Shown here: piece after piece, positions 431-17,483 of the stretch
Numbering within the stretch: the stretch's first letter is position 1
How the letters are laid out: every line of letters starts with the position of its first letter
Assembly: GCA_002170245.2 (NCBI GenBank)
Contig: NHFN02000017.1
Coordinates: forward strand, 1 to 33,222
Direction of reading: 5' to 3'
Origin: Gammaproteobacteria bacterium TMED112
GTDB lineage: Bacteria > Pseudomonadota > Gammaproteobacteria > Magnimaribacterales > TMED112
Length of the DNA stretch: 33,222 nucleotides
Made by a program: the position numbers and the translations under genes
Notes under the pieces: generated by a model
Databases searched by the model: none
Told to the model about the DNA's origin: nothing
The model's input: only the letters and a program-made list of their open reading frames with translations

Positions 431-619
431 TTAAAATCCATCATCCTCTTTAGCTGTTTCTATATTAACTGCACTTCCAAATGAATTTACCCTTAACAAA
501 ATAGGATTACAACAAACATGGCAGTCCTCTACGTATTCTTGTTCAGAGACTGAAGTGTCAATTTCGAAATATATACTTTCCCAACAGTATGGACAAACTG
601 CTTTTTCTTCCACTATCAC
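431..619 (-). CDS. CPXCG-motif cysteine-rich zinc-ribbon-like protein
   Basis: Short protein with two cysteine pairs: a CPYC motif and, about 24 residues later, a CHVCC motif preceded by EYVEDC. This matches the CPXCG cysteine-rich family (Pfam CPXCG), small proteins of unknown role thought to bind a metal such as zinc. The open frame continues upstream to a TTG at 688, but family members begin shortly before the first CPXC, so I choose the GTG at 617-619, which gives a 62-residue protein of normal size. No good ribosome binding site precedes either start. The extra upstream part contains a TTGACA that may instead be promoter sequence. Followed after five bases by a small membrane protein. 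Function unknown. Confidence 0.7.
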   Translation of the reverse strand: MIVEEKAVCPYCWESIYFEIDTSVSEQEYVEDCHVCCNPILLRVNSFGSAVNIETAKEDDGF

Positions 620-681
620 ACTAATTAAATGGGTATTATCCAAAGAATTTAAATATAAGTAAGCTAATGTGTCTGCAATTC

Positions 682-710
682 TTGTCAAAAGTTTCTAATC
701 TTGCAATAGT
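682..710 (+). promoter_or_regulatory. Candidate sigma70 promoter for the duplicated-domain lipoprotein
   Basis: TTGTCA (682-687) and AATAGT (705-710) are separated by 17 bases, matching five of six and four of six consensus positions. They lie just upstream of the AGGAG ribosome binding site and the ATG at 731. On the other strand the same -35 hexamer reads TTGACA, but no convincing -10 follows it at the right distance. Predicted by eye only. Confidence 0.4.
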
Positions 711-730
711 TAAACACTTAGGAGTTTTTT

Positions 731-1558
731 ATGAATTATTTAAAATTTATGGCGCTTTTGTCTATTTTGTTTCTAGCAGCCTGTTCGAGTGAGAACGAAG
801 CTGTAGCTGAAACAACTGAAGCGGAAGCAGACAATACTGAAACTGAAGAACAAGGTCCTCCATATACTGAGTATATGACATGCATGCCTGGGGCTGATTA
901 TAGTAATGCAACTGTTGCAGCTATGATCGATGAATGGAATGACTTTGAGTTTGCTGAAGGATTTGCATATGCTGCAGGTCATGACCCTGTAGAAAGTGCT
1001 TCACTAGGTGGAGAGAATGTAGTTTACTGGCAACTATTCTGGGAAACTAAAGAAGCTGCTGAAGCTGGTTGGGCTGATTGGGCTACAAACACTGAAGCTG
1101 GTGCTTGGAGAGCAAAACATTCATCTGTAATGACATGTGATGGTGAGAACAGAAGGGCGTATGACTTTTACTGGCCTATGGGTGAAGAAGCAAATTGGAA
1201 TGGTCCAAATCAATGGGTTACCTATGCGCACTATTGCAAATTTAATGGCGAAGATGGAATTGAGCTGCTTAGATCTGCTGTTGGTGCTTTTAATGACTTT
1301 ACCTTAGCTGCAAATAACGCGGAACCATTTGCATACAGTGTAATCTTCCACAATGGTGAAAATCCAGAACCTTATATGGATTATGATTTTTTCTGGATGA
1401 ATTATTATGAAAGTCACACTGACGCAGAAACATCTTATGCAAGGTTTGCTGAGAACGGAACTGAAGTTCAGGCTATGTTTGATGCGTCTGCTACATGTGA
1501 AGGACCAAACGCTAGTAATTCTTATCAGTTTTATCCTGATCCGGATGACGAAGCATAA
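731..1558 (+). CDS. Secreted lipoprotein with tandemly duplicated domain, unknown function
   Basis: A 275-residue lipoprotein. A hydrophobic signal peptide ends in the lipobox LAAC with the lipidated Cys at residue 18; Ser at +2 suggests outer-membrane sorting by the Lol system. An acidic linker (about 20-42) leads into two copies of one domain, about residues 45-149 and 162-270. Aligned landmarks are Y-x2-C51 / Y-x3-C169, WNDF / FNDF, FAY / FAYS, LFWET / FFWMN, and CDGEN...YDFYWP / CEGPN...YQFYPD. Each copy holds one Cys at its start and one near its end (C51/C136 and C169/C256, spacings 85 and 87), consistent with one disulfide per domain. Very acidic and Trp/Tyr rich. A clear AGGAG ribosome binding site precedes the ATG, and a terminator hairpin follows, so it is probably a single-gene transcript. 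I know no function for it. Confidence 0.9.
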   Translation: MNYLKFMALLSILFLAACSSENEAVAETTEAEADNTETEEQGPPYTEYMTCMPGADYSNATVAAMIDEWNDFEFAEGFAYAAGHDPVESASLGGENVVYWQLFWETKEAAEAGWADWATNTEAGAWRAKHSSVMTCDGENRRAYDFYWPMGEEANWNGPNQWVTYAHYCKFNGEDGIELLRSAVGAFNDFTLAANNAEPFAYSVIFHNGENPEPYMDYDFFWMNYYESHTDAETSYARFAENGTEVQAMFDASATCEGPNASNSYQFYPDPDDEA

Positions 1559-1575
1559 AGTTTTTTTTGATTAGA

Positions 1576-1610
1576 AAAGGTCACATTTGTGTGGCTTTTT
1601 CTTTGCTTTT
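1576..1610 (+). terminator. Rho-independent terminator after the lipoprotein gene
   Basis: A ten-pair stem (1576-1585 with 1590-1599, including two G-U pairs) with the four-base loop TTTG, followed by a T-rich run to 1610. It lies 17 bases after the lipoprotein stop. Any longer frame for the downstream symporter would have to begin inside this hairpin, which is one reason to reject that start. Confidence 0.75.
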
Positions 1611-1637: not shown

Positions 1638-2978
1638 ATGGAACTGATAGATAGTTTTTTTTCTGAATTTGTTGCGTACGCATGGGGTTGGCAAACAGCA
1701 GTTCTATTATTAGGTGCTGGAGTCTACTTTTCACTTAAAACTAAATTGAAACCTTTCAGTTATCTCGGTTACGCTTTCGAAATATTACAAGGCAAACATC
1801 CAAGTAAAGATGAAGTGGGTGAGGTTAGCCATTTTAGAGCTTTGACCGCAAGCCTGTCTGGAACAATTGGGCTTGGTAATATCGCTGGTGTTGCAGTAGC
1901 TATTCAGTTGGGTGGTCCTGGAGCTATATTTTGGATGTGGGTTACAGCTGTTTTTGGTATAGCTACTAAATTTTTTACAGCTACACTATCAGTGCTTTAT
2001 CGAGAGCAAGGATCAGACGGTAAACCAAACGCTGGCACAATGTACATTATTAAAAATGGATTACCAAAATTTATGCTGCCTTTGGCTTATTTCTTTGCTT
2101 TTTTTGGAGTTATCGCTGGATTACCAGCTTTTCAGGCAAATCAGGTCGTTCAGCTCACAAACGACCTTTATTTTCCAGAAGTTGAAAATTTTGTCTACTA
2201 CGCTGGCGCTCTTTTAGCAGTCATTACAGCTGCAGTCGTTCTGGGTGGGCTAAAACGTATAGCCAATGTTTCTGCGCTTTTAGTTCCACTAATGGGTGGT
2301 ATATATCTTCTAGCAGTTTTAGTTGCCGTACTAATGAATTATCAAATGTTTTTCCCTGCAATAGGATTGATTGTAACTGAAGCATTTGCTTTTGATTCTG
2401 CTGTTGCAGGAGGTCTAGTCGGCGTTATTTTGATAGGTATTAAAAGAGGGGCTTTCAGCAATGAAGCCGGCATAGGAACTGAAGCCTTGATACATGGAGC
2501 AGCAAAAACAAGTCACCCAGTTAAGCAAGGCTTAATTGCAATGACAGGACCAATATTTGACACACTAATTATGTGCACTCTAACAGCAGTAATAATTCTC
2601 ATTTCTGGGGTATATCAGACCTCTGACAGCTCAGGAGTAACACTCACTTCTGAAGCTTTTTTAACAACCCTTGGGCCAATTGGACCTGTTATCCTTTTTG
2701 TTTGTGTAATAAGTTTTGGCTTAAGTACTATATTTACGTATTCCTACTATGGCTCAGCTTGTTCAAAATTTTTGTTTGGCGAAAAAAGTGTAAAAATATA
2801 TCAGTATATTTTTATCGTTTTTGTGTTTATTTTTTCAATTACATCTTTGGACTTGGCTCTAAATGTTATTGATAGTGCATTTGCCATGATGGCTATTCCA
2901 ACGCTCATAGCATCTATTTGGTTGGCACCAAAAGTTATTGAACAATCAGACAAGTATTTTTCTTCAATTAAGAAATAA
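1638..2978 (+). CDS. Sodium:alanine/glycine symporter (AGCS family)
   Basis: A 446-residue polytopic membrane protein of the alanine or glycine:cation symporter family, which imports small neutral amino acids with Na+ (or H+). The family signature GGPGAIFWMWVTAVFG is at residues 92-107, preceded by GTIGLGNIAGV (75-85), which belongs to the conserved binding region; many further hydrophobic segments fill the rest. I start at the ATG at 1638. An in-frame TTG at 1587 would add 17 residues but sits inside the upstream terminator. No strong ribosome binding site is visible. The 3' end overlaps the converging DUF3445 gene by 11 bases. With Na+-NQR at the other end of the window, sodium coupling is plausible. 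The exact substrate cannot be read from the sequence. Confidence 0.93.
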   Translation: MELIDSFFSEFVAYAWGWQTAVLLLGAGVYFSLKTKLKPFSYLGYAFEILQGKHPSKDEVGEVSHFRALTASLSGTIGLGNIAGVAVAIQLGGPGAIFWMWVTAVFGIATKFFTATLSVLYREQGSDGKPNAGTMYIIKNGLPKFMLPLAYFFAFFGVIAGLPAFQANQVVQLTNDLYFPEVENFVYYAGALLAVITAAVVLGGLKRIANVSALLVPLMGGIYLLAVLVAVLMNYQMFFPAIGLIVTEAFAFDSAVAGGLVGVILIGIKRGAFSNEAGIGTEALIHGAAKTSHPVKQGLIAMTGPIFDTLIMCTLTAVIILISGVYQTSDSSGVTLTSEAFLTTLGPIGPVILFVCVISFGLSTIFTYSYYGSACSKFLFGEKSVKIYQYIFIVFVFIFSITSLDLALNVIDSAFAMMAIPTLIASIWLAPKVIEQSDKYFSSIKK

Positions 2979-3759
2979 TAAAATCAAAGATTTTTTGAAC
3001 TTTTTTATTGCCCCCAAAATAATCAATTTCTTTCTGGTCCATGCCTTCAAGGCTTCTTCTTAACCCTAAAATAGCATCTTCAAACATCAAAATTGACGAG
3101 AGTTTTTGAAATCTAACATTTATAGCAAATAGAGAATAATCCTCACTAAATTTACATAAAGTTTCTCTTTCTGATCTGACTATCCAGTCTTTGACATTTC
3201 CTCTGGGGAATCCTTCGGGTGTCAAATGCATACGTTGATCATCTCCGTGAATTAACCAATTTTCCCTTAAAAAAGGTTTATTGAGTGGGGCATTGTTAAT
3301 AAATTTTTCAATAGGGTTACCAATTTTTTCATTCAATGATTCAACGGGTTTGTGTATTTCTCTAAGTGATTTTCCAATTTTAGATTTAATATTCCAGTAA
3401 CTCGGAGAGCAAACCGATGCAGCGAGAAGCCTTTGTTTTTTATTGCACTCTATGATGCAAAGGTCATCAGGTACTGAAAGAGATATGTCTGCTATTAAAT
3501 CTGGATAAGTTTTGTTTTCGACTTTTAACTTTTTTGCCAGTAGATTTTGGGATGCTTCTGATTCTTCGGTAGTAGCAATCACATCTTCATACTGGGTAGC
3601 TAAGAGGTTTTTTTTGTGAGCTTTTAGGCTATCAGTGATCTTTACTTCGAACCACCGGATCTTTTCAATAGGTTTTAGGCCTAAACGATATTTTTCTTTG
3701 CCATTACCCCAAGGAGGATTTTCCCAAAAGTTGTGGTCAACAGATTTTATAGATGCCAT
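2968..3759 (-). CDS. DUF3445 / haem-dependent oxidative N-demethylase-like protein
   Basis: A 263-residue protein matching the DUF3445 family: an N-terminal GLKPIEKIRWFEV segment (about 27-39), a central DLCIIE followed by LLAASVCSPSYW (about 110-121), then IHKPV, a REN-W element and the conserved SERETLCKF. The characterised relative is the haem-binding alpha subunit of a Pseudomonas oxidative demethylase acting on dimethylamine, where the domain has a PAS-like fold. Length fits a stand-alone subunit; the flavin/NADPH partner subunits of that enzyme are not adjacent. It is divergent from a flavin monooxygenase 47 bases away, so the two may share a control region. Family assignment is fairly sure; the amine substrate is inference, and many DUF3445 proteins are uncharacterised. 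Confidence 0.8.
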   Translation of the reverse strand: MASIKSVDHNFWENPPWGNGKEKYRLGLKPIEKIRWFEVKITDSLKAHKKNLLATQYEDVIATTEESEASQNLLAKKLKVENKTYPDLIADISLSVPDDLCIIECNKKQRLLAASVCSPSYWNIKSKIGKSLREIHKPVESLNEKIGNPIEKFINNAPLNKPFLRENWLIHGDDQRMHLTPEGFPRGNVKDWIVRSERETLCKFSEDYSLFAINVRFQKLSSILMFEDAILGLRRSLEGMDQKEIDYFGGNKKVQKIFDFIIS

Positions 3760-14089: not shown

Positions 14090-14739
14090 TGATTACTATT
14101 AGAAAACTCTCAAAAAGTTATAAAGATAATTCTTGCAATCAGCCAGTTTTTCAGGGTTTATCTTATAAATTTAACAGTGAAGGTGTTTACAGTATTCTTG
14201 GATCTTCTGGTTCAGGCAAAACTACTTTACTTAATTTAATCTCAGGTTTAGATGATTATGAAAGTGGAACAATAAAAGTCTTCAACCAAGAACTTAGTAA
14301 ATTATCCATAGAAGGGAAGAGCGAGTTACGAAAAAAATATTTTGGATTTGGTTATCAATTTCACTATTTACTAGAGAACTTATCGATTTACGAAAATTGT
14401 CTTGCAGCTAATTTTGGTATTGATAATGGTAATATTGAACCAACTTTAAAAAAATTGGGCATAACAAACATAAAAAACAAACTACCATCTAAGGTTTCTG
14501 GAGGTGAAAAACAACGAGCTTCAATTGCTAGAGCTATATCAAAAAAACCTAACGTATTGATATTAGATGAGCCCACTGGAAATTTAGATCAACAAAATAG
14601 CTTGGTTGTGCAAGATTTTCTTCTAAATTATGCAAAAGAAAATAAATCCCTTGTAATCTACGCAACACACGATGTTGCATTTGCTAAAAAAGCAGATAAA
14701 TCTTTAAATATTATTGAACATAATATTGTAGAAGAATGA
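14089..14739 (+). CDS. lolD: Lipoprotein-releasing ABC transporter ATPase LolD
   Basis: A 216-residue ABC ATPase. Walker A LGSSGSGKTT (37-46), a Q-loop region FGYQFHYLLENLSI (87-100), the signature SGGEKQR (137-143), Walker B VLILDEPTGNLD (156-167) and the switch histidine in YATHD are all intact. The FGYQFH-LL-NLS region and size match the LolD/MacB/FtsE group. The preceding LolC/E permease, overlapped by one base (TAATG), identifies it as LolD rather than a MacB ATPase. It powers release of outer-membrane lipoproteins from the inner membrane. Its TGA overlaps the ATG of msbA-lpxK by four bases (ATGA). Confidence 0.92.
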   Translation: MITIRKLSKSYKDNSCNQPVFQGLSYKFNSEGVYSILGSSGSGKTTLLNLISGLDDYESGTIKVFNQELSKLSIEGKSELRKKYFGFGYQFHYLLENLSIYENCLAANFGIDNGNIEPTLKKLGITNIKNKLPSKVSGGEKQRASIARAISKKPNVLILDEPTGNLDQQNSLVVQDFLLNYAKENKSLVIYATHDVAFAKKADKSLNIIEHNIVEE

Positions 14740-17483
14740 ATAAATCTCTTTACACGAGGCTGTTAGGATACACCTTTAAGCATAAAGGTTTATTTTTTCT
14801 CAGCATTTTTGGTTTTTTTCTATTCTCAGCAGCGGATATATCAGCAGTAGAGTGGCTTAAACAAGTTATCTCATATATAAATGAAAATAATGATAATCCA
14901 CTTAACCCCACAAATTTAGCACTTTTTCTAGCATTTATTGCTGTTGTGAGGGGCATAGGTTTTTATGTCGGTAACTATTTCATGGCTAATATAGGTCAAA
15001 AAGTTGTTCACAGTCTAAGAAAAGATTTAATTTCGAGTCTTCTTTATCAGCCCATGAACCTCTTTGATCAAGCCTCGAAAGGCGAAATTGTAAATAGAAT
15101 TGTTTTCACTACGAATCAAATAACAGGTGCTGCAACCGATGCACTAAAAATTTTTTTTAAAGAAGGTTTTTTGCTAGTAGGTTTGTTCGTATATCTACTT
15201 TACTTAAGTTGGAAACTTACCCTAGTAATTTTAGTAATTGCTCCACTTATAGGCATAATTGTCTCAATTGCTGGGAAGAGATTAAGAAGAGTAGCAAAAA
15301 AAATTCAGGATGTTATGGGGGTAGTAACGCAAGTAAGTAGTGAAATTGCGTCTGGAGCAAGAGAAATCAAATCTTTTAATAATGAAAGTGGAGAAGAAGA
15401 AAGGTTCAAAAGAGCAAATGACGAAAACCTTAAACAAAATTTGAAGATGGAAAGTACTGGAAATATTGCAACTCCTTTAATACAAATTTTTGTGGCTTTT
15501 GCTCTCGCTGCAATGAGTTACTTAGCTTTAACAAATCTTGATGATTTAAATCTACCTTCGGAATCATTTGTAGCATTTTTTACAGCTGCAGGCCTAATGG
15601 CTAGACCAATTAGACAACTTTCAAATTTGAATGGAATTATTCAAAGAGGGCTGGCTGCAGCTGAAGATATTTTTACTACTATTGATAATTCACCTGAAAA
15701 ATACAATGAGGGTTTAGATATCAATAAGACTTTAGAAGGCGAAGTTCATATAGATAGCGTCTCCTTCTCTTATTCTCACGATTCAGTGCCAGTTTTAAAC
15801 AATATATCTATTAAAGCTTCTAAAGGAGAAACTATAGCTCTTGTAGGAAAATCTGGCAGTGGAAAGTCAACAATAGTGAATCTGTTAAATAGATTTTATG
15901 ACAACTATGAAGGCAAAATTACAATTGACGGGTATGACATAAAAAAAGTTAAATTGACCGATCTAAGAAACTCAATTTCTTATGTATCACAAAACCCTAC
16001 ATTATTTAATGATACGGTAAAAAATAATATTGCTTATGGCTTAGATGAAGTGTCAGATTCAGAAGTTTTTCAAGCTGCAAGAGAAGCAAATGCTTATGAA
16101 TTTATTATGGGTTTGTCTGAGGGTTTCAACACTATTATTGGTGATAAAGGAGTGACTTTATCAGGCGGTGAAAAGCAAAGAGTGGCAATAGCAAGAGCTT
16201 TGCTCAAGAAATCATCTATATTAATATTTGATGAAGCTACATCAGCATTAGACAATGAATCAGAAAAAGAGATTCAGTCAGCAATTGAAAAAGCATCTAA
16301 GAATAAAACAACTTTTATAATAGCTCATAGGTTGAGTACCGTTGAGAGAGCTGATCAGATTTGTGTCCTTGAAAATGGAGAAATTACTCAAAGCGGCACA
16401 CACAGCGAACTAATCAAAGAGGAGGGCCTCTACAACATTCTTCAAGGCAAGCCTGAACAAATTGAAGATGAAGAATCAATACACCTAGAAAAAGACTTCG
16501 TGCCAACCCTAATTAATGAAAAGATAAGTTTTTGGGATGAATTCAATTTTGGCAATATTGCATTAACTCCTCTGAGTTTTCTATACTGGTCTGTAAGTAC
16601 TTTTAAAAACTCTTTTTTAAAGCCTAAATCTTCTTCTATCGATGAAATACCTGTTGTCGTGGTGGGGAACGTAACTGTTGGTGGTAATGGTAAGACTCCA
16701 CTCGTAAGTCAAATAGCAACAGATCTTAAAAATATGGGCTACAAACCAGGAATAGTGCTGCGAGGCTACAAAGGCACGTTTACTGGTACTAGATTAGTTA
16801 ATAAGGATACAACAGCAAAAGAAGTTGGTGATGAAGCCATTTTTCATTTTAAGAGAGGTTTTGATGTTGTTGTTGATAGAGACAGAGCAAGAGCTCTCTC
16901 TTACATAGAGAGGCACGCAGATTGCGATATAGTGATTTCTGATGATGGTTTACAACATAGTTCTTTAAGAAGGGATTTCGAAATTATAGTTGAAGATGCA
17001 ACTAGAAATTTTGGCAATCGTTTTTTTCTTCCGGCTGGACCCTTGAGAGATAATATCTGGAGAACTAAAAATGTTGACCTCTTCATTTACAGCGGAAGAC
17101 GTGAATCAAATGATAACTTCTTTGAGCTAGAGCCAGAATCTTGGGTCAACTTAGAGACAGGCGAATCTTATCTTGTTGACGAATATCCTTTTGGAAGTAC
17201 AGCAAATGTAATATGTGCTATTGCAAATCCTAATAGATTTTTAAGAACACTTAATAATTTGAAAATCAATTTCGACTACAAGCTTTTCCCTGACCATCAC
17301 TATTTTAAGAAAAAAGACTTAGAATTTGGTTTTGAAAGACCAATACTCACAACAGAAAAAGATGCTGCCAGGATGGGAGAAAAATTTAATGCAAAAAATG
17401 TTTGGTACTTAAAAATGGGTGTGAAACTTAATACAAACATAAGCAAACTAATTACAGAAAAGTTACAACAAAAAAATGTTTAA
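14736..17483 (+). CDS. msbA-lpxK: MsbA-LpxK fusion: lipid A flippase joined to tetraacyldisaccharide 4'-kinase
   Basis: One uninterrupted 915-codon frame encodes two lipid A proteins. Residues 1-570 are a full ABC exporter: six membrane helices (about 18-310), Walker A GKSGSGKST (371-379), signature LSGGE (475-479), Walker B ILIFDE (495-500) and switch His531, as in MsbA, which flips lipid A-core across the inner membrane. After an acidic linker (about 571-598), residues 599-915 are a full LpxK: the N-terminal LTPLSFLYWSV membrane-associated helix, the P-loop VGNVTVGGNGKTP (643-655), DDGLQH (736-741) and FFLPAGPLR (763-771). LpxK phosphorylates lipid A at the 4' position on the cytoplasmic face. 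Elsewhere msbA and lpxK are separate adjacent genes. No stop or frameshift separates them; an in-frame GTG at 16500 could initiate a 327-residue LpxK. Overlaps lolD by 4 and kdsB by 8 bases. Confidence 0.95.
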   Translation: MNKSLYTRLLGYTFKHKGLFFLSIFGFFLFSAADISAVEWLKQVISYINENNDNPLNPTNLALFLAFIAVVRGIGFYVGNYFMANIGQKVVHSLRKDLISSLLYQPMNLFDQASKGEIVNRIVFTTNQITGAATDALKIFFKEGFLLVGLFVYLLYLSWKLTLVILVIAPLIGIIVSIAGKRLRRVAKKIQDVMGVVTQVSSEIASGAREIKSFNNESGEEERFKRANDENLKQNLKMESTGNIATPLIQIFVAFALAAMSYLALTNLDDLNLPSESFVAFFTAAGLMARPIRQLSNLNGIIQRGLAAAEDIFTTIDNSPEKYNEGLDINKTLEGEVHIDSVSFSYSHDSVPVLNNISIKASKGETIALVGKSGSGKSTIVNLLNRFYDNYEGKITIDGYDIKKVKLTDLRNSISYVSQNPTLFNDTVKNNIAYGLDEVSDSEVFQAAREANAYEFIMGLSEGFNTIIGDKGVTLSGGEKQRVAIARALLKKSSILIFDEATSALDNESEKEIQSAIEKASKNKTTFIIAHRLSTVERADQICVLENGEITQSGTHSELIKEEGLYNILQGKPEQIEDEESIHLEKDFVPTLINEKISFWDEFNFGNIALTPLSFLYWSVSTFKNSFLKPKSSSIDEIPVVVVGNVTVGGNGKTPLVSQIATDLKNMGYKPGIVLRGYKGTFTGTRLVNKDTTAKEVGDEAIFHFKRGFDVVVDRDRARALSYIERHADCDIVISDDGLQHSSLRRDFEIIVEDATRNFGNRFFLPAGPLRDNIWRTKNVDLFIYSGRRESNDNFFELEPESWVNLETGESYLVDEYPFGSTANVICAIANPNRFLRTLNNLKINFDYKLFPDHHYFKKKDLEFGFERPILTTEKDAARMGEKFNAKNVWYLKMGVKLNTNISKLITEKLQQKNV

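Follow-up and report, generated by a model that had tools for sequence, protein, structure and literature searches.

The protein encoded at positions 731 to 1,558 of the window (the whole stretch of 33,222 nucleotides from Gammaproteobacteria bacterium TMED112 analysed here) is a genuine internal duplication, whose two halves very probably fold, according to structure modelling, as a tandem ferredoxin-like alpha+beta barrel. It is an exported lipoprotein with a predicted lipid anchor. The family to which it belongs (family A) is a new lineage-restricted branch within a known fold superfamily, and among the genomes searched here it appears to be limited to SAR86 and one sister family of Gammaproteobacteria, f164. 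SAR86 is an abundant lineage of the ocean surface with very small genomes (the one carrying the window measures 1.02 Mb). A family that is kept and multiplied in such genomes with a conserved, putative disulfide architecture offers an entry point to the surface biology of SAR86, and the fold assignment turns a "hypothetical protein" into a ligand-binding barrel hypothesis open to test.

The initial annotation had credited this gene with a secretion signal, a good ribosome binding site and a terminator of its own, and each of these elements was recovered (Table 1). The signal peptide ends in a lipobox, a GGAG sequence precedes the start codon, and a hairpin with a T tail follows the gene, one such element being found against 0.7 expected in shuffled sequences. 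Promoter-like sites near the gene, 3 in number, were not above the 2.9 expected by chance. Contig C12 begins where the window does (G000:C12:1), which limits the sequence upstream of the gene to 730 bases.

Table 1. Features of the family A gene in the window, with predicted secondary structure elements (E, strand; H, helix), and copies of family B discussed in the text.
Feature	Position	Strand	Description	Basis
Ribosome binding site	721..724	+	GGAG, 6 bases 5' of ATG	sequence reading
Tandem-domain lipoprotein gene (family A)	731..1558	+	275 aa, ATG start, stop included	
Predicted lipoprotein signal peptide	731..784	+	lipobox LAAC, Cys18 (codon 782-784), Ser at +2	
Tether	785..859	+	residues 19-43, acidic, Glu/Thr/Ala-rich, variable length	
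First ferredoxin-like domain	860..1180	+	residues 44-150	model and domain profiles
Domain 1 elements			E45-53 H59-69 E78-84 E98-104 H107-119 H121-129 E134-136 E142-147	model
Cys51	881..883	+	strand 1 of domain 1	
Cys136	1136..1138	+	last strand of domain 1; predicted partner Cys51	
Second ferredoxin-like domain	1202..1540	+	residues 158-270	model and domain profiles
Domain 2 elements			E161-171 H176-192 E201-208 E220-226 H229-242 H244-253 E254-266	model
Cys169	1235..1237	+	strand 1 of domain 2	
Cys256	1496..1498	+	last strand of domain 2; predicted partner Cys169	
Intrinsic-terminator-like hairpin	1573..1602	+	followed by T run	
Family B copy	L039:3614-4321	-		
Family B copy	L102:5545-6249	-		
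Family B copy, window's own genome	L160:5420-6142	+		

The claim that the protein is made of two copies of one domain has been confirmed by several lines of evidence. The local alignment of its halves scores 75-78 against a mean of 30-32 for shuffled sequences (z about 8), and none of 2000 shuffles reached that score. Among the 73 non-identical members of family A that were gathered (51 from SAR86 and 22 from f164), exactly two matches to the domain profile were obtained in 71; one further member shows three, the third being a weak overlap, and a very divergent one shows none. The profiles of the N- and C-terminal halves also match each other, both in SAR86 (E 4e-7) and in f164 (E 1e-14, 98.3% probability). 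As for the landmarks proposed to be shared by the two halves, NDF, FAY and C-(D/E)-G-x-N...Y-x-FY are in register, but FW is not: F103-W104 is displaced with respect to F221-W222, and it is W100 that pairs with W222. The only observation in favour of a chance or compositional resemblance within one non-repetitive fold comes from single sequences, since the halves exceed their shuffles (no more than 15 of 300 as high) in 17 of 19 f164 members but in 13 of 21 from SAR86, the observed score being reached more than 15 times in the other eight. Against the shuffles of the window protein, the domain counts, the f164 profile match and a structural model in which the fold appears twice, this explanation is extremely improbable. 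The duplication is old. In a tree of 62 domains, the N-terminal domains of f164 join those of some SAR86 paralogues, and C-terminal domains likewise join C-terminal ones, which argues that it predates these splits, with many forks of the tree unsettled owing to the shortness of the domains.

The fold was predicted with AlphaFold2 from 11 sequences, yielding a model with a pLDDT of 70.9 and a pTM of 0.67, while two of the five models reached only 32-43 in pLDDT. Residues 1-41 are modelled with a pLDDT below 50, and each half adopts the same beta-alpha-beta-beta-alpha-alpha-beta arrangement, which agrees with the earlier guess of a dimeric alpha-beta-barrel-like unit and argues against a single non-repetitive fold. 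A Foldseek search of the PDB returned 35 matches with E ≤ 0.001, headed by chain 2PGC (E 1.5e-7); tandem monooxygenase-like proteins came after it, along with sulfur oxygenase reductase, chlorite dismutase, and coproheme decarboxylase. The fold matches obtained with VIA-align span residues 41-272, and the model places two beta-alpha-beta-beta-alpha-beta domains on one chain, as in tandem-fused ferredoxin-like barrels. The superfamily is described as barrels built from a pair of ferredoxin-like domains, which are joined as a dimer or lie fused in a single chain (PMC4835899). The domain had been presented as unrecognised. This holds at the sequence level, as no Pfam, NCBIfam or PDB-sequence match was obtained, but not at the level of the fold, which belongs to a known superfamily. 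The observation in the initial annotation is confirmed, and its interpretation is partly supported: the two copies of one domain with matched cysteines are borne out, and the high expression and surface location suggested there are only possible.

The closest structural match is 2PGC (JCVI_PEP_1096685590403), whose structure was solved for a novel family of marine metagenome proteins from the GOS survey (PMC2557142). In VIA-align, the whole mature window protein aligns best with this structure (Z 16.3, rmsd 3.1, 200 residues aligned). Both proteins hold their two domains in a single chain, about 205 residues long in the marine and uncharacterised 2PGC. However, the identity in the fold alignments is only 6-11%, and sequence profile searches at E ≤ 10 did not retrieve 2PGC. 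Sulfur oxygenase reductases come next (Z 14.8-15.3 over 212-218 residues). The tandem folds related to antibiotic biosynthesis monooxygenases (3F44, 3MCS, and PenE, 9KDP) and the anthrone-oxidase-like 5F9P, all built from two fused ferredoxin-like domains, align over both halves with Z 11-13. Unlike these proteins, family A gives no match above cut-off to the Pfam ABM model, nor to other barrel models, in 21 SAR86 members, 19 f164 members or single halves, and we know of no export signal, lipid anchor or paired cysteines in the tandem monooxygenase-like group. Lower values (Z 8-9) were obtained for chlorite dismutase, coproheme decarboxylase, HmoB, and DyP. Tandem duplicated alpha+beta barrels are also attributed to chlorite dismutase, HemQ, and DyP (PMC4835899).

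The window protein contains five cysteines, at positions 18, 51, 136, 169, and 256. The last four form the two matched pairs already pointed out in the initial annotation, 51/136 and 169/256, with spacings of 85 and 87 residues. All four are kept, within two alignment columns, in 65 of the 73 members (43/51 from SAR86 and 22/22 from f164). A cysteine within two columns of Cys18 is found in 46 of the 51 SAR86 members and in only 2 of the 22 from f164. These counts indicate that the lipid anchor is mainly a trait of SAR86, and that what stays constant is the double domain with its putative disulfides. In the ferredoxin-like fold, the sheet order is 4-1-3-2, and strand 1 and the last strand are adjacent. 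A disulfide within each domain is plausible because its cysteines sit on these neighbouring strands, and the strand positions in the model are consistent with the disulfides predicted earlier; the two cysteines of each domain would most likely be bonded to each other. Besides the four cysteines, G54, W100, W104, and D137 are invariant among 21 SAR86 relatives, and W69, W114, W126, and W222 are nearly so. All of the 19 f164 members compared keep the four cysteines, together with W60. No histidine is invariant or nearly so in these 21 SAR86 or 19 f164 relatives, and H84, H167, and H207 are fixed only among the close relatives of the window protein.

With these data, the best explanation as a whole, which we put forward tentatively, is that the protein is a disulfide-stapled, membrane-tethered barrel that binds a small molecule. 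The signal peptide would be cleaved ahead of Cys18, which would then be lipidated. In Escherichia coli, a Ser at position +2 of a lipoprotein leads to the outer membrane by the Lol rule, and the Ser found here may direct the protein to the same place. A flexible acidic tether would hold one compact alpha+beta barrel, a single-chain pseudo-dimer of two fused ferredoxin-like domains, in which the 51/136 and 169/256 disulfides would staple the domains for life outside the cytoplasm. The cleft between the helices and the sheet, where the conserved tryptophans are probably located, would receive a small ligand of hydrophobic or aromatic nature, and neither heme nor a metal held by histidines would be involved. 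This proposed function is derived from the fold and the type of residues and can be considered possible, though somewhat doubtful, given that other proteins with the same fold are enzymes or parts of oligomers.

Two of the enzyme types sharing the fold suggest other functions. The protein might be an enzyme working with heme, or a carrier of it, in the manner of IsdG/HmoB, chlorite dismutase/HemQ or DyP, as these proteins have the same double-barrel fold and several of them were retrieved in the structural comparison. In IsdG and OxdA, a histidine holds the heme iron (PMC4835899). A conserved ligand histidine of the kind used by chlorite dismutase, HemQ, DyP or IsdG was not found in the 21 SAR86 and 19 f164 members, and a heme function is consequently improbable. 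The second-best fold match, together with the conservation of the cysteines, would fit a non-heme iron sulfur enzyme in which the cysteines are catalytic instead of bonded. Sulfur oxygenase reductase is a non-heme iron enzyme whose iron site consists of two histidines and one glutamate, and the known ones are, to our knowledge, cytoplasmic. No conserved histidine from which to build such a site was found in the same SAR86 and f164 members, and the grouping of the cysteines into two equivalent pairs suits disulfides better, making this the even less credible of the two. Either type of enzyme is unlikely because family A lacks a histidine conserved throughout.

A different proposal is that the barrel is part of an exported multi-protein assembly, in which it pairs with a second exported family (family B) in a structural or regulatory role and does not act as a ligand binder. 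Family B is present in 68 of 101 SAR86-group genomes and in 6 of 61 from f164. Its two halves are also similar by profile (95.8%, E 8e-9). His80 and His186 occupy equivalent places in that comparison of the halves and are invariant in 12 of 12 aligned members. The profiles of families A and B show no significant sequence relation (26.5% and 5.8% probability), and a structure prediction for family B made from two near-identical sequences reached a pLDDT of 41.8, too low for a fold to be read from it. In favour of an assembly, the A and B genes lie no more than 2.5 kb apart in 17 of the 57 genomes with both, where random placement expects 0.67 pairs. These comprise 11 pairs in genus g7 (one strand, 26-51 bp apart), two in genus g1 (divergent, 0.69 kb), and four in genus g8 (divergent, 1.5-2.3 kb). 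A fourth genus is added by two f164 genomes (L102 and L164), in which the genes are adjacent on one strand and separated by about 20 bp. On the other hand, the genomes are related, so the 17 cases count as three SAR86 genera and not as 17 events, the 11 of g7 being probably a single inherited arrangement. Moreover, the two genes are not close in the remaining 40 genomes, the window's own included, where family B is on another contig (E 4e-7), and tandem copying inside one superfamily also yields adjacency. For these reasons, an assembly with family B seems unlikely, but clearly less so than the two enzymatic alternatives. The family B copy of the window's own genome adjoins a gene whose sequence suggests an MsrA-like methionine sulfoxide reductase.

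In relatives, family A clusters with two other exported families, and this is the lead of greatest interest to emerge from the analysis. The third family (family C, L162:5176-5871), which has two domains in our own reading of its sequence, occurs in 42 of 101 SAR86-group genomes. It lies within 2.5 kb of family B in 30 of its 65 places, distributed over 19 genomes, and gives one weak match to DUF1330 (E 0.018). In genome G029, a segment of about 4 kb (L162:2963-6766) contains five exported genes, of the types A3, B, C, C, and A. It may be speculated that SAR86 and its sister family carry an exported toolkit of at least three tandem-barrel families (A, B, and C), unrelated or barely related in sequence, present in several copies in many small genomes and often clustered, which would act jointly at the envelope as an undescribed heteromeric ligand-binding or enzyme system. 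This broader proposal is doubtful at present. In the window, the family A gene is found alone among housekeeping genes, with no clustering with exported families.

Regarding its distribution, relatives of the window protein were found in 82 of the 101 SAR86-group genomes searched (same genus and order), covering 16 of 18 genera, and named relatives are mostly from SAR86. Several of these genomes gave two to four matches; many carry one to four copies of family A and often one to five of family B. In a sample of 369 genomes from the class, the SAR86 profile (A1) retrieved four SAR86 genomes and one other, G266. A profile made for the family of the latter (A3) retrieved 4 of the 369, with no additional group. 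In f164, the gammaproteobacterial family of G266, 29 of 61 genomes contain a match, and the full-length profiles of SAR86 and f164 members match each other with 98.5% probability over 246 columns. The A3 profile found nothing in 398 genomes sampled from the phylum, an answer that is weak because the same profile misses the window's own genome, so that distant members have perhaps been overlooked. No Pfam family covers the 21 SAR86 members, the 19 f164 members or the single halves. Searches of Pfam, NCBIfam, and PHROGs gave stray matches below the cut-off, which for the window protein fall mostly in the signal peptide, and a sequence search of the PDB gave no credible match for SAR86 or f164 members. 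No relative was found among the viral contigs and plasmids searched, and no description of family A in the literature covered, most subscription papers being outside its scope.

Some loci of family A deserve mention. In genome G025, three divergent family A genes lie abreast (L065:4903-7365). Similar clusters are found in L068 and L078, the copies in L078 being near-identical. Two loci filed under Holosporaceae (L034) and Halobacteriovoraceae (L038) are probably mis-binned SAR86 DNA, as the gene and its neighbours equal those of SAR86. An aminotransferase-like cluster (c6) was considered as a clue to function and rejected; it is present in 11 of 20 f164 loci and absent beside the SAR86 genes.

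The neighbours of the gene in the window include products of the alanine-symporter, HODM-like, flavin-monooxygenase, SixA-like, and sterol-desaturase-like types, named, except for HODM, by reading their sequences. These genes are conserved together inside the genus and differ elsewhere, and for this reason no function has been drawn from them. Divergent from the lipoprotein gene is a small CPXCG cysteine-rich protein (431-688, minus strand; PF14255, E 1e-17). Two genes downstream of the lipoprotein gene lies one similar to the alpha subunit of the heme-dependent oxidative N-demethylase (2968-3759, minus strand; PF11927, E 1e-23). Further downstream, an open reading frame of 915 amino acids (14736-17483, plus strand) can be read as joining, in one frame, an ABC transporter of the MsbA-like lipid A flippase type and an LpxK-like lipid A kinase.
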